Assembly: GCA_004764695.1 (NCBI GenBank)
Contig: SMSO01000037.1
Coordinates: forward strand, 2,549,837 to 2,613,836
Direction of reading: 5' to 3'
Length of the DNA stretch: 64,000 bases
Origin: Schizochytrium sp. TIO01
Taxonomy: Eukaryota; Sar; Bigyra; Thraustochytrida; Thraustochytriidae
Part shown: in pieces, positions 31,489-48,596 of the stretch
How positions within the stretch are numbered: the first letter of the stretch is position 1
How the letters are laid out: every line of letters begins with the position of its first letter
Position numbers and translations under genes: made by a program
The notes under the pieces: model-generated
The model's database searches: none
Told to the model about the DNA's origin: nothing
The model's input: the letters and a program-made list of their open reading frames with translations, nothing else

Positions 31489-34400
31489 TCATCTTAATCC
31501 ATCCAATCTAAATCTACGGCCAATAACATCAGGTGTCAGCAAAGGCAAAAGCTGTGCGCCTAGAATACTCGGAAGACTTTTATCTTGAATGTTTTCAGTC
31601 CAGTACTTACACAGACGCTCCCCGCGTAGCACCCTCCACGCCTTACGAACCTGTTCAAATGAATCAGGGTAAAATGGATCTTGCCCGAGTCTTCTTGAGC
31701 AATTTCTCACATGCTCATGGCAAGATTCACTATCCTCTGAACTATATTCCAGACACCAAGCACAAAAGTGGTGACCACATGCAGGATTACCACATTTCAC
31801 AGCACAACACCCTTCAAACTTATCAAAACAAGCGTTGCAGTTCGGACAGTATGCATTCAGGATTTTCTCCTGTATGTACCGTAGATGCATCTGTGCATCG
31901 CGGGTCAGGCCATCTGTTTGAATAACTTCAGCCATTCGCCTCTGAATTTCTTGCTCGGCTCGAACTGCTGCTTCACTTTCTACCTTCATCTGCGCAATTC
32001 GCAATAAATGATTTAAGGCATTCGGAGCAAGGCGAGTGATCTCTTGACCCGTGATTCTTCCATCACATCCAGGATTCATGCAGGCCATTGTACCGTCGGC
32101 ATCCACAGTAACGGAAGCATCTGGCTGCGCAGCAGCTTCTACTGACCTTGCGATACAATCTTGGCAAAGAAAGTGCCCCCTTTCACAGCTTGTGCTCTTG
32201 GAAAGTGGATTTGCCACCTGACACACAAGACACACCCCTGTTGGAGCTTCAGAGACTCCAAATGCTTCATGTTGAAGTGCTTCATGCGCACTCAAGCGCT
32301 GGTTAGGGTTTCTTGCTTTCAGGGTCTCAATGAGTTGCTGCATTGCACTAGTTAGCTCAGGATAAAGCTCCTCTAGCACTACACCCACAGAGTACATATC
32401 CATTGCTGTTTGGAACTTCTCCACAGGGCCATTTTTTAACTCAGGAGCAATGTACCGGGGTGTCGCCTGAAGAGACGTGAAAGTTGCAGTGTAGTTTGCA
32501 ACTTTGATGCCATCAAAATCACCAAGCAATGGCGTTCCATTACTTGTGAGAAAGATATTTTCTGGTTTGATATCACAATGCACGATTCCATGATCATGTA
32601 TATCTGCCACACCAATGAGCAGCCCTGTAGCAAGCCGATCACGAGCCGCCTTGCCTTCATTAGGGTGTTCCTGAATCCATTTGGCTAAGTCTCCTTGCTC
32701 GTAGAACGGCATGACAATACATCCACGTGGCAACCCATGAGAAGTGTCTATAAAAGCACCAGTTATACGAATTACGTGCTGAGACGTTACCTTTCCTAAA
32801 TTGGCAACTTGCTTGTAAAACGTCTTTGATTGGCTTATGTGACCAAGCTGGAACTGCTTAAGAACCAGTGTCTTACCATCATTGTCAAGAACCTTTTGTA
32901 CGGTCTTGCCCCCTCTGAAAGCGAGGGGGCGTCCAACAGGCTGAAAGTCCGAGATATTGACATTTGCCAACCAGAGGTCTGAGCAAGCCACTTCAAATAC
33001 ACCATCTGTGCTTACATGGAGCCTTTCCAACCAAACTTGGTCTTTCACGAGCTCTGGGTAGTGTTCTTGCGCATGTTGCAGAGTTTCAGCAAGCTTATGG
33101 CGATAAATCTTACTCAGTTCGACAGGAGTTCCTTTGGATAAAATACCTTCTTGCTCCGTAATCTCATCGCGATAAAACTCCCTTTTCTTCTCTGAACTAG
33201 CTTCGTTAAGACTCTCTTTGGCTCTTCTTAAACCTTCCATTGCCTTTCGCGAAGTTTCAAGCTTCTTTTGTAGCTGCTCCATATTGGAGACATTTGGTTC
33301 CGTTGAACCCAAACGCACATAGTCATATAGCTCAGCGAGAACGTCTGGTTCAAGCGTGTTTGTGTTTTCATTTAACTCAATACCCTCAGCAAGATTTTCC
33401 ACACGATGGAAAGCTGAACCGATGGTTCGCAGTACACTTTGCTCTTTTGCATGCAATGTATGCTCTTTAAGTAGTCCGAGCTCTTCTTGAAGAGCATTTT
33501 GGAGTTCGATCAGTTCAAGTTTTAGCTCTGACGCCTTCTCAGGTGATCTGAGGACGACGCAGAATGCATCACCAAGCCCCAATTCTGCTACCCGCTCTAT
33601 GACCCTTTCGACAGCCTGTTTGCTTCGTTGCTCAGCAGATCGGCCCTTTTGGTTCAACCTCAATCTGTAGTCTTCGACGCACTTGCCCGCCTGAGTAGCA
33701 AGTTCTTGATAGCTCTGAAAATCGTCAGTGCATGTATCTTGAGCGCCAAAATTTATGGCCAGATGATCTAACACACTTGTGAGTTTCACTTTAAATTTGT
33801 GGACGCCATCCTCGTCATTTTCAGGGAAGCTTTGCATGAACCCAGGTTTGAGTGTCTTCGACGAGTGATCGCAGGTGTTCTCGTTCCGCATTGCGCTGTT
33901 TAATGAGACTAAGCAAATCATCTTGGCAGCTTTCACGGGAAGCCTGGCTTTGGAGGTTCTCTAGACGCTCTTTGGCATTTTTGACATCACCAGAAGTTTT
34001 CCGCAGCTTTGTTGGACCTAAGTCGATACTTTGATCCTCAACGTAACGTGGCAATCCACTGTGGACGGTTTCACGAATTTGGGATTGGAGGGTTTCTAAA
34101 CGCTTTATAGAACTGAAGATGTCATTAGAAGCTTTTTGCATCTTAATTTGGCCAAAGTAGCCTTTAATTGCAGGAGCCAAAAATTCCTCGAGCAGCTCGA
34201 TCCCAATGTGTTGAGATTCTTCTCCAACTTTGCCAAGCCCCATGCGCAAATCCGAGACTTTTTCGGCAAGTTGAACCACATTCCCAAACTTCACACTGGT
34301 AATTTCCGGATTTTTTCTTAAGATGATGTAATCAAATGCAGTGAACGAGCAAGTCAGGATTTTATTAAAAGAAACTATGTCGCTCAACTACGAAGACAAT

Positions 34401-37400
34401 GAACTTACGCGGATTTATCTGGATCACGGAGGTCTTCAGGAACCTCAATATCTTCGTTGCTTTCTGATACTGCAGAAGTCCTAGGTGCCTCGTCTATTAT
34501 TATGACACTTGAATCGGGGTCTGAGGATTCGGTGTCTGAAGAACCAATGTCCTCAGCAGAGCTATATACCTCCTCAAACAAGTTCTCATGAGCTGCATTA
34601 GTTGAAAAAGGCTCTTTGTAACTGTTTTACATCAATTATACGCTCAGAGTGGCAGTTAGAAAAACAATCAGTGCAGTATATACGACCTCATAACTCCATC
34701 TATGAAAGGAGAAATGCAGAATAGGAGGTTTTGACCTAGCTCGAAGCAACGATAACAGAAGCCTGGAACTTACCGGATTCCCACAGAAGGAAATGCTTTG
34801 TGAAGAGACTTCAAAACACCAACGCTAATATGATTATCCCAGATACTGTAGGTTCGTTGTTTGTTCATCATCAAGAGTAGTCAGCCAAGCTCTGTTCATA
34901 TTAATTACCAATGCGGGATCCAGGATTATTATTTCTTCATTTTCTGTTGCCTGCCCATATTCAATGATAAGAAGCTGATCGTCTTGGCTTAGTATGCGCA
35001 GACTTGTTCTATTCTTTTTGTTTTGTTTTGGTCCATTCTTTTAGTCCCGCTCCTCTTTGCCTTTCTTTTACTTTCTACGACAAACAGTACATCAAATAAT
35101 CACCCATGTGCGTTTCTATGTAATGAACGTACTGTAATAATACCAATTCATTGCAATACTCCAGTGTATTGATGAGAGCCTTGGCACCTGCATCACCGAA
35201 ATTGTTAGAATGAAGACTGTGTACTCCATGACTCAATCATCGTCAAGGCATGTCAGTTAAATGCTATATGTACAGCCGCTTAGGTGTCACCATGGGACAC
35301 TCTCACACTCTCACTCTCTTCACAATTCACAATTCACAATTAACTATTTGTACATTCTCAGCATTTGAAAGAGAATCCTAATGATTTTTGCACGTCATGA
35401 GTTTTTGCATTTTATTTTTGCGTCTCTACGCGGTAACAAATATTGATATTTTTTCCATTTCCTATTTCCCTACTTTGTTTCCCCCAAGAGAATATATCGA
35501 GTATATTCTATGCAAATTCCCATCGATATAAACATACTCTAGTGTGACCAGACCCATGCAGCTATTCAATGCCTTGCTGACAGCCTCAATGCCTGCAGCA
35601 CCAATTCGGTTAGACCCAATACTGTGTGTACGTTGGATGGTAGATGCCAACAAAGTTAGTCAAATGCTCTACATATCATTGGTCGATCGCCGCAAAACCT
35701 ATGATTGAAAGTATACGCTTCTGTCGCTACACGATTTGTTTTCTTAGCGACTGAAGCGTGACCATTTTGATTTTTGCCCTGTTGTGTAGACTATTTGTAG
35801 TAGCCTAGTTTCCTGCATTTGAGCCTCCTCTTGTGGAAATCCGTCTTGTCCTTTCCTTCAAATAAACGTGAAACAAGGATCCATATACATTTTTTCCATG
35901 AGACGTACTTCAATTCGAACAGGTCCTCGCAGACCTCCAGCGCTTTAGCGAGAGCCCTGGCGCCTTCATCGCCAATATCATTATCCTCAAGACTGTGTTA
36001 ACGTCATTCAATCGTTGTCAAGAGAAGTCAGTTAGGTGCTACGTGTATCAATCGCCCATGTACCACTAAAGATGACCTTTCTACCTCTGCTTTTCACTGT
36101 TTTATGGGATATGAAAGCCGAGCTCAATGATATTTGATTTGGCAACATAAAAATTGGGTTGCTATCCTTGTTCTTCTTCACATTTCTGTTTCTTATCAAA
36201 ATATTGCAGATCAGCTTGTATAGTGCAGCGTTCTTCCGTAAAACGTACTTTAATTCGGTCAATTTGCTGCAGTTCTCCAGCGCCTTGGCCAGCGCCTTGG
36301 CACCTCCCATGCAAATCTTGTTATGTCGAAAACTGTATGTATGTCATAAGATGTATTCAAGCCAAGTTAGCCGAAGGTGCATTTAATACCCAAAAGTCAC
36401 TGGAAGACTGACGCCCCCAGGTTTTAATGCTGTGTTTGTATTCTCAGTCTTTTTAAGTTGGACCAAATTTCTCTGGGAGGTTTATGTTTTGGCGTCATCT
36501 ATTTGGGCTTCTAAGTAAAGAACCTCGTTGCTATCTTATCTTTGTCCTTCCTTCGCGTTTCTCTCTTCTTCTTTTTTTTTTTTTTTTCTTCTCGAACTAG
36601 TAAATTTAATCTAAGAAGTCATTCATCTATATAACGTACTTCAATCTGGTCAATTTCTTGCAGTTCTCCAGCGCCTTGGCCAGGGCCTTGGCACCTTGTA
36701 TACGAATGTTGTTGTACTGAAGACTGTATCATTAAGGCGTTGCCAAGGCAAGTTAGTCAACTGCTGCAGATTTGATTTGTCGAAGAACCACTACTTAACA
36801 CGGGCTCTTCGCCCATAGTTGGCTGATCTCTATTCTCAGTGGTCAACCAGAACAGAGGAACATCTTGCCTTTTGCAGTTAAGCGTCATCTCTATGAACCT
36901 TCTCATGGTAAGGGGGATCCTTGCTACTATATTCGTTATGTTGCCATTCTATCACCTTCTTCTTGATCTCTCCTCCTCTTCTATCCTCACCTCTCTGTCT
37001 CTGTGCTTGATTTACTACAAATATCGAATAGAATCCATGCAACCTACTACTCTCAAACTTACTTCAACATGGTCAGGTTTGTGCAGTCCTCCAGTGATTC
37101 TGCAAGAGATTTGGCGCCTAAGTTACCAATCGCGTTAAATCCAAGACTATGTGTTTGTGTGGATTCGTTGTCAAGGCAAGACATGACAAGACAAATTAGT
37201 CAAGTGCTATATATTTCAATCATTGTTGCGCCAAAGACCGCTGCTTCTCTTTACGGCGATGCTTAGTCTGGATTCTCAGCATTTGAAGTCGGTCGTTTTG
37301 CTTTTGCGTGTGTTCTTGCGCCATATTTCCTACTATAATAGCGACTTTTCAATTACTTTTTTCGTTGCTGGTTGGGTATTCCCATCTTGATTTCCACATT

Positions 37401-40400
37401 TCCTTCTCAGGTCAAATAAAACACTTGCATTTTTTCCCCGTAAAACTTACTCCAAAAAGATCAGATTTTTGCAACCCTGCAACACCTTTGCAAAGGCCTT
37501 GACTCCTCCATCACCAATTCCATTATTATGAAGACTTTCAATGGTTACAAATACAAAAGTCAGTCAAGTGCTGCATGTAGCAATCGTTTATGCGCTACCA
37601 CAGAACACAATCTCTTCACATTTTGGTGCCTCTTCTATATTCTCTGAACTCCAGTGACGACCATTCTGTTTGCTCATCCCGTGTTGGACTTGATTCATTT
37701 GAGTATTCTCTTGGTGAGAAACCGATCTAGTTTCTTTATAGGATTCGAATATCCTTTCATCTGTAAAACGTACTTTAATTTTGTTAGGTTCGTGCATCCC
37801 TCCAGTGCGTTAGCGAGAACCTTGGCAGCTTCAACGCCAATTTCGTTACCCATAAGGCTGTTTATATTCGCTCATCCAACGTCGAGACTAATTAGTCATA
37901 TGATGCCATCTCAGTTGCCTATGCATAGCCAAAGAGCGTCATTTCCCCATGCTTCGTTGCCTGTTCTATATCTTCAGCGTTATGAAATTGGCACCATTTA
38001 TCTTTCTTTTGGCGTCCTTCGTTTGGGCTTCTCGGTAATAAGAGACCAATGTGATATATATCCTCTCTCTTCCACTTCCTTCTTGTAACACATCATGCAT
38101 ATTCATGTAACCTTTCATTCACAAAACGTACCTCATCGTAGTCAGGGTGGTACAACCGCACAAGGCCTTGGCGAAGGCTTTGGCGCCTCCTTCGCCAATA
38201 TTATTAGCATCAAGACTGTGTGTATGCCGTTAGTTTGTCATCACAATAAGTTAGCCAAGTACTATCTATATCATGTGCCAACTTTCTACCCAAACGCGCT
38301 TTCTTCATGCCTGCGAGTCAAAGCTAATTGTTTTGGTTGGCTTAATGGTTTGGAGTTCTGCATGTGGATCTCCTTTGCCTTCGAGACCTTGTTACTTGCA
38401 TGTTTTTACTCGCTTGCCCTGATTCCATTCCCCATCGAGATTAGCGACTAACATTTACGCCGCCTTTCGTTCATAAAACGTACCTTAACGTGGTCAGGGT
38501 AGTACAGCCGTCCAGGGCCAAGCCAAATGCTTCAGCGCCTTTACAGCCAATATTGTTCTTATCAAGACTGGGTGTTGTTATCAAGACAAGTCAGTCAATT
38601 TCTATCTTTACCCCGGCACCTCCACTATTCCCTCCAAAAGTCAACAATGCAATCTGTGCAGCGTTTCGTTTACAAAACGTACCTTAATGTGGTCAGTGTA
38701 GTGCAGCCTTGCAGGGCCTTAGCGAAGGATTTGGCGCCCCCGTCGCCAATATTGTTAGCAGCAAGACTGTGTTTTTGGATTTAGTTTGTTGTCACCACGA
38801 ATTAGTCATCTTCTATCTATACCATATGTCAATAATGTAGCCACAATTTTCTTCACCCTGAGCTGCCTGTTAGTGATATAAAATCAATATGTTTGGCTTC
38901 TTTATTCAGGTATCCTCTCTCTTTAAGACCTTGTTATTTTGCTTTCCATGTTTCTCTTCTTTATCGGTTTCCTATCGGAAGTAGAAATTATGCTTCATAC
39001 AACCGTTCGTTCATAAAACGTACCTTAAAGTGGTTAGGGTAGTGCAGCCGTTCAGAGCCTTGGCGATAGCTTTTGCCCCTTCATCGCCAATATCGTTATT
39101 ATCAAGACTAAGATTGTCATATGTTCGTTGCAAGAATAAGTCAGTCAGATGTTACGATACCATTCCCCAATTTTCTTCCCTGGGATTTGTCTTCTTCAAG
39201 CTTCGCTGCCTGCTTTTAACTTTTAGCAGTTCAAAGCTAATCATTTTGTTCAGCTTTGAATTGACTATCTGTAGACGAGTCTCCTCTTATTGAAGCACGT
39301 TGTAGTGTTGACTTCGCTCTTTTGTAATGCTCTGCGTTTCTTTCCCATCGAAAATATTAAGTAAAATCGACGATTTTTTTCGTTCACGTGACGTACCCTA
39401 ATGTGATCAGGTTAGTACATCCTTCTAGGACCTTGGCAAAAGCCTTGGCACCTTCATCGCCAATTTTGTTGAACTGGAGTCTGTTTATCCCATTTTTTTC
39501 ATTTGTTGTTTAGTTGAGTAAGTCGAGAGCTGCCCACACCATATTCACTATGTCACCACAGAACACTTCATATAAACATACCTCAATTCTTGCAGCTCAT
39601 TGCAACCCTCTAGAGCATTGGCAAGGGCCTTGGCGCCTTCACCACGAATATTGGCGGCCTCCAAACTTTGTATATTTCATTCAGTGGTTGTCCAGACAGG
39701 TCAGCAAAATCCATTCTAATCACCCTTATGCAACAAAAGATGAAATCCTTCATATCTCCAAACTTTGCTGTGTTGTCCTCATGTCGGTGTTTGGAAGCCG
39801 AAATGTCTAACTTCGCAGCGTTTACACCTTTTGACATTTTCATTAAATTCAATTTCTCTTGGTAAAAGCCTGACAAATGGCTTCATTCTCTCTTTCCCAT
39901 CTCGTCTTAAATATGAAATGGAAATATCAAAGTTGAGTTGTAAAGCTTTCCTGTTCATGAAACGTACTGTAATCCTATCAAGCTGTGGCAGCCCTCCAGC
40001 GCCTTGGCGATCGCCTTAGCACCAGTTGCGCAGATGTTGTTGTATCGGAGACTAGGTGCATTTCATTATTAATTGTCATCAAAGGTTAGTTAAGCATTAT
40101 AAACGTTGATCACAAAATCGCCACCATACATTGCCACCTCATATTAGGCGGCTGGTGATTCAATTTCCTAAGGATCTAGTCCAATGACTAGTATTTTTAC
40201 TTTTGCACTATTATAACTTTGCATTGACCTTTTTGCAAACCCACTTGGGAGAGCAACACTTATTGGTGGCTTTCTCCCTTCTCCAGTGTCTCTCTTCTTT
40301 TTGCTAACTTCGATTTCAAATATCTGTTTGGCAATTAAACATACCTTAGCATAACCAAATTCTTACAGCCTCCGAAGCCCATGGCGAGGGTTTCGGCGCC

Positions 40401-43099
40401 TTTAGGACCAATGTTGTTGTTTTGAAGACTGTGCACTCGTACGTTGCCAATATTAGTCGATTGAATTTTGCTTACCCAAGCCATAGATCACCACTACTCC
40501 TGCGAACTTGCTACCTCGTCCATGATTTCATTCTAAATCTGATCTTTTAAGCTACTGGATCAATTGTGTCGTGGTCTTATTAATTCAGACCTCTTTTGCC
40601 AAGAAATCTTGTTGCAATCATTGAGTTTAACCCCATCCAACTTTCAGAATAGTAGTTCTTTCTTTTAGTAAACGTACTTTAGCGCGGTCAAGTTACGGCA
40701 ACCATCTAGAAGCTTGACGAGGGCCTTAGTGCCCAGAAAGCCAAAGTGGTTGTCTTCCAGACTGTCATTCGTTTTCAAGCATGTTAGTCAAGTTCTGCCC
40801 ACATGTCATACCTGTGAAGATGTTCCTGGGTGAAACGTACTTCAACCTTGTCAAGTTCTTCAAACCCTCCAGCGGCTTGGCGAGGGATATGATGCCTTCT
40901 GCACCAATGTCGTTACCTCCGAGACTGTAACAATGACACCCATTCGTTATTGAGACAGGTCAGTTTGGTGTTGTAATGTAGGTTGTATATGCGCCACAAT
41001 AGGGGACGCCTCTCTTCACTTCGTAGGTATTCTCATACTACTTAAATTTGAAAGCTGGTGATCTGAACTTTTGACCAACTTGAAATTCGACAGTGGTTGT
41101 TTAGGTCTTAAGAAAACTTGTAATTGATCTCTCTTTCTTTTTCTTTAAATTCTCTCCCAAGAAATCCAACATAAACAATCTAAGCAAACTTTTATGAACG
41201 AAACGTACCTCAATTCTTTTAGATTCGTGCAGCTCTCCAGGGCCTCGACAAGGTAAAATATACCTTCTGAACCAATGTTGTTACCCCCAATACTGTGTAT
41301 ATTCGTTCGCTCCACGTCAAGAAATGTTAGCCAAATACTACTCTCCATTTCAATTGCACTTATGAGCCAAATTAAACGGCTTCTTTTGATCGATTTGCTT
41401 CTCTACTCATTCACGATCACTAGGTTTGTCTCCGCTTTCGAGATTTGAACTCATCTCTATGAGACGCTTCGAGGTGGGTAACCTTATTGTGAGCTGTCTC
41501 TGTTTTATATCTCCTTTCGATTGTTATCAGACGGGAATAGCAACCTTCTTTCCTTAAATACAACTTTTCCTTCCGTGAGACTTACCCTAGCCTGGTTAGT
41601 TTCTTGCAGCTCTTCAATGCCTTGGCGAGGCTTTTAGTACCTTTAGCGCCGATGTTATTATTTCGAAGACTGTGTGTTTCTCTCCACATTCATAATTAAA
41701 ACGGGTCAGTCACATGCAATTCATCTCAATCGCCAGTGTGTCACTAAAAAGCAATTCTTTCTAGTTTTTGATGCTGTTATATTATGTTTTCGTATCTCTT
41801 TTCAGTTCCTTTCCCCATCAAACATACCCCAATACGGTCAGATTATTGCAGCTCCCCAACGCCTTGGCAAATGCTGTGACACCTTCAGCGCGAACATCGT
41901 TACCCCCGAGACTGTGTGTATTCATTCGTCCATTGTCAGTACAAATTAGTTAACGGCTAGCCATTCCAATTATCAATGTCAAACCAAATTACGCTGCATC
42001 TCTTCATTGCTTCAACCTAACACTACATTCTCATCAGCATTTCAAACGTGGTCGCTGGATTTTTATCACTCCTTTGCATTTTCCAAATATCTCTTTGTGT
42101 CTCTCCTTAATACGCAACCTGATTGCAAGCTGCATTCGTTCTCGTTTCCGACCTCTTTTGCTTTCTTCTCAGCGAATATTTGCAAATACAACCCACGCAG
42201 CTTTTTGTCATTGAAACTTACAAGACGTTAGTCAGATTGTTGGAGGCCTCCAGTACCTTCGCGAATGCTTTGGCACCTTCAGGGCCCATATTATTGTTTT
42301 GAAGACTATGCGCATATCCTCAGTTTGTGTATTGTAAGAAAGTTAGTCATATGCACCAACTTTTCATGTCTCACAAAAGGAGTCTGGCTCTCTAAACTTT
42401 ATCATTTTCTTTCTATATGTTCTCAGCACTTTAACTTTGACCACCCAGACTTTTCAACCGTTTGTGATACGCCAATATTTTTTGAGTCTCTCCTTGGTAA
42501 ACAATCCCTGAGAATCAATCTTCATTCTGCTTTCAATCTTACGTGTTGCCTTCCCAACAAGAATTACTAATACAAACCACACACCTTATTTCTCTTGAAA
42601 CTCACGATAATATAGTCAAGTTTTTGGAGCCCTCCAGAGCCTTGGCGACGGCCTTGGTACCATCAGGACCAAATTTGTTGTCATGGAGACTAAGTTTGCA
42701 TCATTTGATCGTATTTCCAGAATAAGTTAGTTGCCTTACATTTGAGACCTCCTCATGGTAAGAACCCATCTGGTTTTCTGCGTTCTCGCTGTCTGTATCG
42801 CTTCTTTCTTTTACAAGAAAAGTACAATACAACCTTCGATCCAATAAACCTACTTCAAGTGTACTAAGTTCTTGCAGCCCTCCAGCGCCGCGGCGAGGGC
42901 TCTAGCATCTTCGAGACTCAAGTTGTTGTTGCTAAGACTGCACATATCGAATGAACAAAGTAGGTCCAGTGAGTAACGATTCTTTCAAAAACATGAAGAC
43001 TTGGAATGCCCAACTTCGCCTTCTCTACGCCAAACTATGAACTTACTCCACCTTTGTGGTGTTGGTATTGATAGCTTCAATGCTCTCTGCGATAGTCAT
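31489..43099 (-). CDS. LRR - helical linker - protein kinase - RING/Rcat E3 ligase fusion (26 introns, one +1 frame change)
   Basis: My gene model, running from high to low coordinates: ATG exon 43099-43047; 24 LRR exons of 84 nt; a 72-nt cap exon 34845-34774; an acidic exon 34621-34409; and a last exon 34295-31489. All introns are GT-AG and interrupt the codon after its second base, so the frame holds throughout. The last exon reads to UGA at 33823-33821 (942 aa). A +1 shift there continues to the stop at 31489 (about 1719 aa). In full-length numbering: LRRs about 18-714, acidic linker to 785, charged helical region 785-1235, kinase 1240-1465, zinc region 1473-1650. Kinase: Lys1264, HCD with Asp1359 and a following KPEN, DFD in place of DFG at 1377-1379, and APE. 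Zinc region: a CxxC RING start, the CxRGHxxCxxC half, then an Rcat-like CPNC...EGCC...CGHHFCAWC with candidate catalytic Cys near 1614/1615. No signal peptide or membrane span is seen, so the protein is probably intracellular. Domains are clear; the exact frame-joining mechanism is uncertain. Confidence 0.85.
33821..33829 (-). other. Frame junction at CTT-CCC-UGA (+1 shift joins the LRR and kinase halves)
   Basis: The upstream frame runs ...HAKLP and stops at UGA (33823-33821). The downstream frame is open through the whole kinase and ligase and fits from the base after the T of that stop, giving KLP-ENDEDG. One extra C in the C3 run (33826-33824), or a +1 ribosomal slip on CCC before UGA, yields the same protein. 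No GT-AG intron I could find bridges the two frames. CCC or UCC before UGA is the kind of site used in +1 programmed shifting, as in antizyme genes, but a sequencing indel is equally possible. Confidence 0.7.
34774..42937 (-). repeat. Array of 24 one-repeat LRR exons (84 nt each) plus a 72-nt cap
   Basis: Exons (low-high): 42854-42937, 42606-42689, 42222-42305, 41828-41911, 41586-41669, 41209-41292, 40841-40924, 40678-40761, 40345-40428, 39968-40051, 39582-39665, 39397-39480, 39024-39107, 38683-38766, 38484-38567, 38132-38215, 37774-37857, 37451-37534, 37063-37146, 36640-36723, 36249-36332, 35909-35992, 35538-35621, 35133-35216, then the shorter 34774-34845. Each encodes LxxNxIGxxGAKALAxAL followed by ExCxxLTxL, the 28-residue ribonuclease-inhibitor type of LRR. 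Donors are mostly GTACGT, GTAAGT or GTATGT; acceptors are mostly CAG, with some TAG or AAG. A TGACTAAC-like branch site lies about 25-50 nt before most acceptors. Introns range from 79 nt (40762-40840) to a few hundred. Exon starts are commonly 340-400 bp apart. Confidence 0.9.
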
Positions 43100-45641: not shown

Positions 45642-48068
45642 CTAAACATGACCAGTGGACGCAGGATTAGAAGCTGAGTTTTCAGAGGTACGCGGTTTCA
45701 GGTTTACTCTTTCTTCTGTACTAATGGTTTTAGTTTCTGGAGTAATGCTTTCTACTGGTACATCCTTTAATGAACTTTTCTGTTGTCCTTCATCAACAAA
45801 ATTCTCCTCCTGATTGTCTTCACCTGTCCGAACGGAATTCTGAACAGAGAGAGGGGGTGTTAACTCCGAGCTATCCCGGGGTATATTCTCATTTCCTGTT
45901 TGATTCTCAGTTGTTCTGTCAGGTGCAGGTGATAGGTCAAGTTCTATCGAATTACGCAAATCTGAAGTATGATCAGTCATACCTTCACTTGATGATTGCT
46001 CTGTAACGAAAGGGGTCGGTATTGGGGTAGGGTTGTTTGTTGGATTCATTGTTGGATTCATTGTTGGTTTCAGTGTGGGTTTGCTGGTTGGTTTGCGCGT
46101 CGGTTTGCTGGTTGGTTTGCGAGTGGGTCTCGTAGTTGGTTTCAATGTTGGTTTCAATGTTGGTTTATTCGTTGGACGGGCTGTCGGTTCCTCTGTCGGC
46201 GAGGGCATACTTTTTAAAACAACGAACGCTTGTCGCAACCTAAGAACGTGGACCTTTTTCATTCCAATGTCATATAATTCTGAAACTTCCTGGTCGACGA
46301 GGAGTTGAAGATCTTCCACAGATTCCACTCCTATTTCAAACAAATTGTCCTCATACTTGGACAAGCGGACCTTCTTAAGAAACGCTGCAAGCTCAGGGTC
46401 CACGTGGCCTTGTTGATCCTCATCTTGACCAGAGTCATCCTGCTGGTTCTGTGACTGATTTACTTGTTCAATATCAATTTTGTTTTGATGCTCGTGACCT
46501 TCTCCTGTTACTAAAAGTGGATAGTCATGTTCGGCATGGTTTATGTTATCCTGAGTCCACGTCGATTGGTCTTCTTGCTTGGACTCGTCTAACTGATCTT
46601 GTCTGTTTGGAGTTTCAGCATTGAAGTTGCTGTCGCTTCCCACAGGTTGATCAGTTGTTGGCATGGACAATGTTGGCTCCTTGCCTGTTGTCGCAGGATT
46701 GTAGACATGTGGCATTGCAAACGCGGGCGATTCTTCGTGTTTTCCTGTCTCATTTATACTGCCAGTTTCGCTTACTGGTTGATGATCAGCATCTGCGACA
46801 GAATCAGTCTTGGGCAATGAAAGCCCAGTGCCTGTTTTTGCAGGTGGTGGAGCGTCATGTATGTGTGGCATTGGGAAACTTGGAGGCTGTGTCGGTGTCT
46901 TTGTTACAGCAATTGGTGGGTGTTTTGCTGGTGCAGGCTTTCTTAAAGACAAAGTTGGTGACTTACTAGGTGCAGAGGTAGGCTCTGTCAACGGGTATTC
47001 AGACTGATGGGCTTTGGCTAGAGTGCCTTGCTCTGGCGTTGAAATAGGAGTATCTACACTAAAAGCGTCAATGTTTTCAGTTCCCTTTTCAGAGTTGTCT
47101 ACCTGAGTAACATCAATGGTGTTATCTGTGAAGAGTGGCACCGCAGTGAGTGCCCCAATATACATGAAATACATCACAGTTGAGATCCCCACGGCCATAA
47201 ACAGCACATACACAAGTCGCATTCCTCGCGCTCCCTCCAGACACTTGCACACGCTTCTTTTCGAAGCCATCTCTACTAAAAAGGGTGCATAGGTTCGTTT
47301 TTGAGATTGGCCTCGTTTGTGTCTTTCAACAAAAGTCTGGGATCTCGTCGTCTTGATCGGGGGCCAGCTCTCTTCATCCTCGTCTTCCAGCCCCATATCA
47401 ATCTCAAAAATATTCTCCATGCCTTCTGCTGCCTTTGCACCCCTTTTCCATGTGTCATGTGCATCAGGATTTTCATTCATGTTTGACTTTGCACTTCCGC
47501 TCCCAGGCTCGCTGCCAGACCTTGCCGTCCATCTGTCCAAGAGTTCGCGTTCCACCTCCGCGTCGCTCTTGGGAACTTCGAGGTCCCGAAAGGCCTCTGA
47601 GATCCTGTCCTTCTCTATAGAACTATCTCTTCCTGTGTGCGCTCTCAATTTTGCTTCTGCATGGGCCCCGGCAGCCCTTGTGGACCCCGAAATCGATGAA
47701 TCTGCTGTTGTCGCGAAAGCTGCTGAAGTCCCAATGCCGGAGGGCACTAAAGAAGTGCCGCAAGAGGCGCCGGAGGACGGCGACAAGGGTGTGGAGCTAG
47801 GTACTTGCTCGCGGGCGCGAAGTTCAGGAGGAACACTTAAAGGGCTGTCTCCTAGGTCCAGCGGCGTCCGCAGAGCGGTGTCGTGGTGCCCGTGGCGGCC
47901 TTGGGCCTGGAGCGACGGCCCCTGTCCATGGCGGGGCTCATGAAGCGAAGAATGAGACGTCTGACGGGAGGGAGCGGCAAAACTACTGGTAATCTCACGG
48001 GAGGTGCCATCTTCTGATCGGAGACGTAGTGTAAAGGGCCGCCGGCTACCGGAGGCCCGCCGGTCCAT
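45642..48068 (-). CDS. Type II membrane protein with a SAM domain and PT-repeat tract
   Basis: Uninterrupted 808 codons starting at an ATG. Residues 1-280 are hydrophilic and Ser-rich, with an acidic stretch near 226-236 and basic residues ([15 protein letters not shown]) just before a single membrane segment at about 284-306. There is no N-terminal signal peptide. By the positive-inside rule the N-terminus is cytosolic and the long C-terminal part faces outside or the lumen. That part has Pro/Thr/Ser-rich sequence (320-550), a SAM-like domain (556-618; [20 protein letters not shown], then DLQLL and the [10 protein letters not shown] end helix), a PT tract (about 622-686) of x-x-P-T units, and an acidic tail. 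PT tracts are frequent in stramenopile secreted and wall proteins and may carry O-glycans. Function is unknown. The SAM assignment is from pattern; the topology is inference. Confidence 0.85.
46012..46200 (-). repeat. 12-bp-period coding minisatellite (PT repeats)
   Basis: A GGTT-rich dodecamer on the plus strand encodes the KPT, NPT and RPT units of the 45642-48068 protein. Several units are near-identical, which suggests recent expansion. Confidence 0.85.
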
Positions 48069-48596
48069 GGTGCCTCATCAAGGTTTGCGGAGAAGCCGGT
48101 TTTTCGGAAATGCAGCCATCGACTCACGATAAACCCGCAAGGCAGCCTGGAATCCCGCAACTACAGGTGTGTTCTGGAGTCATGACCGAGCTCAAGGTTG
48201 CCTTCTTCAACGCATGGTGTCGTCGAGAATTTCAAGTTTAGCGTCCAGCATAGGATCCCAGATGACTTTCGATTCTCCCACCAATTTGAAATTCTAGGAC
48301 TTCATTGTTTCCTAAAAATCCCAGATATTAGCAAAAAGAGCGCCTGCCGGCTTCGTCCACTCCCATTCTCCGCCCATGCCCAGTCGCCATTGCAGCGCGA
48401 TAAACAAATGGTGAGCCTATCTCCATCGCTTCTCTGCGCTCTTCCCCTTCCAGCCAATGCTCCTTTATTTCTGCTTTATCTTCGCCATTTGAAATCCCCA
48501 ATCAGCGTCAGCGTCGAGAGCATTTCAAATTTTCAAATCTCGATCTATCTTTCTCAATTCCATGACGACTATCATCATATACCCACCCCCTACTGT

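Follow-up and report, generated by a model that had tools for sequence, protein, structure and literature searches.

Among the closest described systems are the LRR-ROCO genes of brown algae, on which Zambounis et al. reportedly worked in 2012. These candidate immune receptors have one repeat per exon, with 72-nt LRR exons in phase 2, exon shuffling and a ROC-COR GTPase, and positive selection was found at LRR sites 14, 16, 18 and 19 on the concave side (PMC11378527). Tetrahymena has nearly 50,000 LRR exons of an equal length of 90 bp, >96% of them separated by phase 2 introns, and ectopic recombination was proposed for them (excerpt of PMC6564038). For fungal NLRs, highly alike repeats, length polymorphism and positive selection are described and concerted evolution is suggested (excerpt of PMC4986451).

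LRR genes built from exon cassettes have been described before in brown algae and Tetrahymena; the new part of the family described here is its output module. We know of no comparable kinase-ligase output in fungal NLRs. The coupling of a kinase to an RBR-type ligase is familiar from PINK1 and parkin; these are two proteins working in trans and without LRRs, whereas the present family has both domains on one chain, together with LRRs. Among the matches listed from searches of the open literature, no account of thraustochytrid LRR receptors came up, and LRR does not occur in the main text of two thraustochytrid papers; the matches listed for the LRR-kinase-RING1-Rcat order or for an IBR-less RBR (RING1-Rcat) likewise contained no such account. 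The preliminary description of this DNA knew of no family with this domain order; the listed matches agree with it in that respect, while the exon-per-LRR design has the brown-algal and Tetrahymena precedents.

The gene lies on the minus strand of the window (G000:C36:2549837-2613836, the whole stretch of 64,000 nt that was analysed, in a searched genome of 64 Mb and 37 contigs) and occupies positions 31489-43099, where the preliminary description had correctly placed it. In the splice model, exon 1 (43047-43099) carries the start codon and the N-terminus and ends in phase 2 with the donor GTAAGT. It is followed by 24 exons of 84 nt (35133-42937), each encoding one LRR of 28 residues and all of them (24/24) in phase 2 with AG/GT borders. 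The first twelve have their 5′ ends at 42937, 42689, 42305, 41911, 41669, 41292, 40924, 40761, 40428, 40051, 39665 and 39480, the other twelve at 39107, 38766, 38567, 38215, 37857, 37534, 37146, 36723, 36332, 35992, 35621 and 35216. The spliced N-terminal part matches Pfam LRR_6 with an E-value of 1.6e-92. The 24 exons bear out the earlier count of about 24 LRRs. A scan for 84-nt LRR-type exons, which overlooks one of the 24, recovered 23 within the gene region, gave a single further hit on the minus strand and had no plus-strand hit; in 200 Markov surrogates made from the gene region the mean was 0.09 such exons and the maximum two, so the pattern is far above chance level.

Downstream of the array are a degenerate 25th LRR exon of 72 nt, the cap (34774-34845), and an exon of 213 nt encoding a linker of ∼71 aa (34409-34621) that is acidic, as had been proposed (20 D/E versus 4 K/R in 71 aa). 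In paralogs the cap exon is 84 nt long and has a similar terminus, e.g. SLHKACPSVRI. The next exon (33821-34316, frame A) encodes the charged helical region anticipated earlier; the exon is present, and its helical character is judged by composition only. Open frame B (31489-33960, 823 codons plus stop) then encodes the kinase, RING1 and Rcat-like domains.

The window gene shares with other exon-cassette repeat receptors an exon of equal length and phase for each repeat (24/24, the cap having 72 nt). The likeness to brown-algal LRR-ROCO genes covers the exon per repeat, phase 2, exon shuffling and, if the host is a thraustochytrid, the stramenopile lineage; the difference is that those have 72-nt exons and ROC-COR, whereas the window family joins 84-nt (28-residue) LRRs to a kinase and RING1-Rcat (PMC11378527). 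With Tetrahymena it has in common LRR exons of equal length and phase 2 introns, at 90 bp there versus 84 here, and the excerpt of that source notes no common kinase or ligase module (PMC6564038). Fungal NLRs are alike in their closely similar repeats, length polymorphism and positive selection and differ in their repeats, which are WD, ANK and TPR, with no LRR found in the excerpt of that source (PMC4986451). LRR receptor-like kinases have a signal peptide and a transmembrane segment; in the window protein neither was found, by eye at the N-terminus in exon 1 and by hydropathy, respectively (highest 19-residue Kyte-Doolittle mean 1.09 in the N-terminal part and 1.25 in frame B). Pfam searches of the spliced N-terminal part and frame B gave no match to NACHT, NB-ARC, Roc or COR domains.

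The kinase domain spans frame-B residues 352-533 (32362-32907) and matches PF00069 with an E-value of 2.4e-31. The catalytic Lys (VLK), the HxD Asp (HCD), the Asp at the DFG position (GDFDG) and APE are all present, in agreement with the preliminary description; the DFG glycine is replaced by Asp, giving DFD. From its HCD motif this is a predicted non-RD kinase, a class that does not require phosphorylation of the activation loop (PMC9403797). Among viral contigs, none of 38 pattern matches was confirmed; a phage collection gave 39 records, and the 10 listed all match within or beside the kinase part.

The ligase had been described as an RBR ligase with RING1 and Rcat. RING1 (32065-32232) has the eight-ligand pattern C-x2-C..C-x3-H-x2-C-x2-C..C-x4-C; its seven Cys ligands are unchanged in all 13 aligned members, and the remaining ligand, a His in the window, is replaced by Asp in 7/12 members. 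CMNPGC, earlier taken for a pair standing between RING1 and Rcat, belongs to RING1 and supplies its seventh and eighth ligands. Pfam RING models match weakly, below the cut-off (0.42 and 0.0044 in two scans). In the Rcat-like domain (31699-31848), frame-B residue 718 (31807-31809) is the predicted catalytic Cys, unchanged in 13/13 members, whereas the zinc-ligand Cys 139 and 159 are conserved in at least 90% of the 13 and not in all.

A profile of 13 members has HHARI Rcat as its best PDB match (E-value 2.2e-4, gapless), and chain 2m9y, with Ser at the place of the catalytic Cys, likewise matches it. The narrower profile of 12 members puts the RNF4 RING first (8.6e-5), with HHARI Rcat (0.006) and parkin Rcat (0.026) lower; given this ranking, the basis of the Rcat assignment is the ligand spacing together with the wider, 13-member profile. 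Alignment by hhalign with two RBR proteins of the same genome gave 95.5% (E-value 1.5e-8). The window family resembles RBR ligases such as HHARI/ARIH1 and parkin in RING1-type ligand spacing and an Rcat with catalytic Cys, and differs from them in that IBR/BRcat is missing and the ligase shares its chain with a kinase and LRRs (excerpt of PMC3940038). Where an IBR would sit there is a stretch of helical appearance (31849-32064). The genome search for IBR (PF01485) gave four matches, at two other places and none at the window locus, and in the 13-member alignment the residues from RING1 to Rcat contain no set of IBR ligands; weak matches to IBR_1 occurred in 1/12 members and to IBR_2 in 2/12 (best E-values 0.024 and 0.0096). 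The HMM search proposed in the preliminary description returned the LRR and kinase domains, RING below the cut-off and no IBR at the locus, and of the RBR claim the RING1 ligands and the Rcat-like domain with its invariant Cys stand while the IBR is absent. By its sequence the predicted ligase is composed of RING1 and an Rcat-like domain, joined by the helical-looking stretch and without IBR. Single-sequence structure prediction of the ligase gave a pLDDT of 38 and no reliable structure. Two other frames contain RING1-helix-Rcat: a long one that looks like a coiled coil (L051, G000:C24:3164300-3168600) and a short one (L053, G000:C14:51200-52900). Neither matches the kinase part.

Beyond what had been noted before, the window gene belongs to a dispersed family with dozens of copies. 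When the genome was searched with frame B, 56 match rows were obtained, which fall into 46 places; the 56 are a lower bound, as scoring covered 55 of the 294 initial candidates. The 29 best paralogs have 59-71% identity over the matched parts, and several paralogs are fragments or contain stops. LRR exons on the sense strand lie within 1.5 kb upstream in 19 of the 29; the opposite strand, taken over the full 5 kb, has them in four. In ten longer, hand-chosen upstream stretches (L035-L044, not a random sample) sense LRR exons were present in 10/10, from 2 to 15 in each; three of these stretches belong to paralogs that were blank within 1.5 kb, so LRR exons are upstream in at least 22/29 and the LRR-kinase-ligase order is real. 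Cap-LRR and linker exons in phase 2 that resemble those of the window were found in four of five paralogs, the fifth being partly scanned. A member with 36% identity (L036/L047) has 13 diverged LRR exons upstream, and since the order is the same there, it predates the recent expansion. LRR exon number changes between related copies: equal 7.5 kb stretches upstream of the closely related kinase genes L027 and L028 contain 15 and 4 LRR exons (L039 and L040, on G000:C35 and C32).

Change within the LRRs was followed in 139 exons with full flanks (22 of them from the window) compared in 748 pairs; exons without the 80/120 nt flank or failing a stricter motif were excluded. Change at the concave face was judged from difference rates rather than from a codon model. 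In the 18 pairs with zero mismatch in 200 nt of flanking intron, codons 2, 3, 5, 8, 26 and the split codon had 0.43, 0.17, 0.15, 0.22, 0.35 and 0.36 differences per base, codons 4, 12 and 27 had 0.06, 0.06 and 0.17, and the remaining 19 codons had zero. With introns ≤1% different (78 pairs, not independent, since 16 compare L042 with L043, 11 lie inside L035 and 10 inside L042), the same six rates were 0.55, 0.39, 0.28, 0.47, 0.49 and 0.51, followed by codons 27 (0.15), 25 (0.11) and 4 (0.08). The x-L-x-L-x-x strand is made up of positions 26, 28, 2 and 3, which by our own mapping correspond to the brown-algal sites 14, 16, 18 and 19 (PMC11378527). Diversifying change at concave positions, another trait of exon-cassette repeat receptors, is thereby found in the paralog arrays.

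Single arrays give the same picture. L035 has nine tandem exon units with identical downstream introns and differences at codons 2-3 and 26-28; L039 and L040 have five-exon super-repeats, again with conserved introns versus changing codons. The last full LRR exon of L027/L028 is changed at codons 2, 8, 26 and 28 only, beside 11 intron mismatches in 339 nt. Codon 2 is represented by 26 codons encoding 13 amino acids across 65 exons. That the introns are alike because of function and not recency was considered and rejected, as for most different arrays the introns are 0.44-0.56 alike (median); L042 and L043 (0.99) depart from this, as do the head-to-head arrays L037, L038 and L044 (mutually 0.87-0.96), which have common unit types. 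A four-gamete test for reassortment of 5′ and 3′ variable blocks found no quartet in six arrays. Diversifying selection combined with exon duplication fits the recently amplified paralog arrays, as it does the brown-algal LRR-ROCO genes, and with identical introns beside fast-changing codons these paralog arrays offer a clean natural experiment in how repeats evolve. The introns of the window array are ∼0.55 alike, so it is an old, non-homogenised array; its eight highest-entropy positions (26, 8, 2, 3, 9, 22, 5 and 28) include all six hypervariable positions, and its variability only echoes the paralog pattern, the change there being old.

We propose, at a probability of about one half, that genes with an LRR array, acidic linker, helical region, non-RD kinase, RING1, helix and Rcat encode a family of intracellular recognition receptors in which ligand binding would be coupled to a kinase and a transthiolating ubiquitin-ligase output, the window holding one diverged member. 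The earlier suggestion, made from the window alone, that this is an intracellular LRR receptor lacking both NACHT and NB-ARC is supported by the paralog family and the concave-face change in relatives. The concave face would bind a foreign or non-self ligand, and binding would set the kinase and the ligase free. Going by the conserved Cys and the known RBR mechanism, RING1 would load E2~ubiquitin and the Rcat Cys would accept ubiquitin as a thioester and hand it to the ligand or to a signalling partner. A role of the kinase may be to switch the ligase in cis, comparable to the action of PINK1 on parkin in trans. Immunity appears the likeliest use, judging by the pattern; self-recognition would give the same pattern.

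A broader proposal, which we advance tentatively and hold to be distinctly less probable, is that of a lineage-specific receptor repertoire with recombining LRR cassettes, a diversified binding face and possibly in-frame exon skipping, wired in cis to the kinase and the IBR-less RING1-helix-Rcat, such that a sensor, a PINK1-like switch and a parkin-like effector would be united on a single polypeptide. Because the module occurs in the genome apart from LRRs and kinase, the ligase without IBR would count as an E3 class of its own. If the receptor reading is right, a further protist lineage has exon-cassette recognition genes, with direct ubiquitin transfer, possibly kinase-controlled in cis, as the new output. 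It would raise the questions of whether single-celled eukaryotes use sensor-ligase repertoires in defence, with large DNA viruses as one possible target, and whether transthiolation by a RING1-Rcat ligase can do without IBR. Mirusviruses, which are such large DNA viruses, are reported from Aurantiochytrium.

The window copy itself has a frame break. Its helical exon stops at TGA 33821-33823, and frame B runs on one base out of register; the offset (33821-33835) has no counterpart in the single-frame paralogs. A bridging intron from the helical frame into frame B was tried and ruled out: 680 bare GT..AG pairs are frame-compatible, and none of them (0/680) has a donor hexamer of the types this gene uses. 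As assembled, the window copy would not yield a single polypeptide. With dN/dS of 0.07-0.13 for the kinase and 0.10-0.26 for RING-Rcat, the window domains are under purifying selection, on ratios that are rough (five of six paralogs compared, the sixth saturated; dS 0.9-2.4 throughout). Given this selection on the kinase, the break is either a recent disruption or an assembly indel.

That the window copy is a dying pseudogene with no present function, as the frame offset and the several paralogs that are fragmentary or have stops might indicate, is a reading we consider doubtful. Frame B is open for 823 codons with the low kinase dN/dS just given, and 24/24 LRR exons retain their frame and splice sites; under the pseudogene reading the break would therefore have to be very recent.

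It is also conceivable, and in our view unlikely, that the proteins are housekeeping ligase-kinases rather than receptors, with LRRs that bind a few host substrates, and that no arms race lies behind the growth of the family, which would come from duplications close to chromosome ends. In its favour, 11 of 44 places lie <50 kb from a contig end against 2.1% expected; the 44 are those on contigs of known length, with fragments and ligase-only places included, contig ends may not be telomeres and adjoining copies are not independent. Two duplicate pairs, moreover, keep their LRR codons, so that change at the concave codons is not constant: in L037/L038, 0/18 hypervariable codons are altered at 7 mismatches over 816 aligned nt of intron, gaps not counted, and in L015/L034 none is altered with 0/343 intron mismatches. 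The position-specific change of concave codons amid near-identical introns argues against this account and for recognition receptors.

Still less probable is that two adjoining genes have been joined on paper, one for an LRR-helix protein that stops at 33821 and the other, starting downstream, for the kinase/ligase, with the offset as the true boundary. The offset with its TGA at 33821-33823, the Met (residue 42) that frame B has at the junction and the lack of any intron with a usual donor between the frames would suit such a boundary. It is opposed by the paralogs: helix, kinase and ligase form one open frame of 875-973 aa with no inner stop in 24/29 of them (L006-L034, the exceptions being L025, L030, L032, L033 and L034), LRR exons are kept upstream in at least 22/29, and the alignment of the helical region with paralogs extends across the window junction. 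The earlier view that all domains belong to one gene thus holds for the order in the paralogs and fails for the continuous frame of the window copy, which the one-base offset breaks.

Selection on amplified exon units fits better than targeted hypermutation, a diversity-generating mechanism that would write the LRR codons and that we hold to be very improbable, for, although codon 2 reaches 0.55 differences per base in pairs with ≤1% intron difference and differs by two or three bases in 46/78 of them, its third base is changed in only 1/17 pairs in which both triplets are fourfold-degenerate (versus 7/610 at conserved fourfold codons), the hypervariable codons of L037/L038 and L015/L034 are unchanged, the former despite its intron mismatches, and the last full exon of L027/L028 is altered at its four codons alone.

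Some further observations were made along the way. Codon 27, which adjoins the variable split codon, has a synonymous third-base change in 28/78 recent pairs, unlike most conserved codons. In six of the ten longer stretches (L037, L038, L041, L042, L043 and L044) a second LRR array lies head-to-head on the opposite strand, of the ENRSLTSL type in four and of another type in two, L037 and L038 being mutual duplicates; the window has no LRR exon on its plus strand by the exon scan. The 3′ side of the head-to-head array, read in two cases, continues into a short helical-looking tail, and the one tail scanned had no Pfam match. A paired receptor is a possible interpretation of this arrangement. 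In the window, the next large frame upstream of the LRR-kinase-ligase gene is an open frame of 810 residues on the minus strand (45642-48074). Its PT-rich repeat and SAM-like stretch score under the Pfam cut-off, and one hydrophobic stretch was seen by eye.
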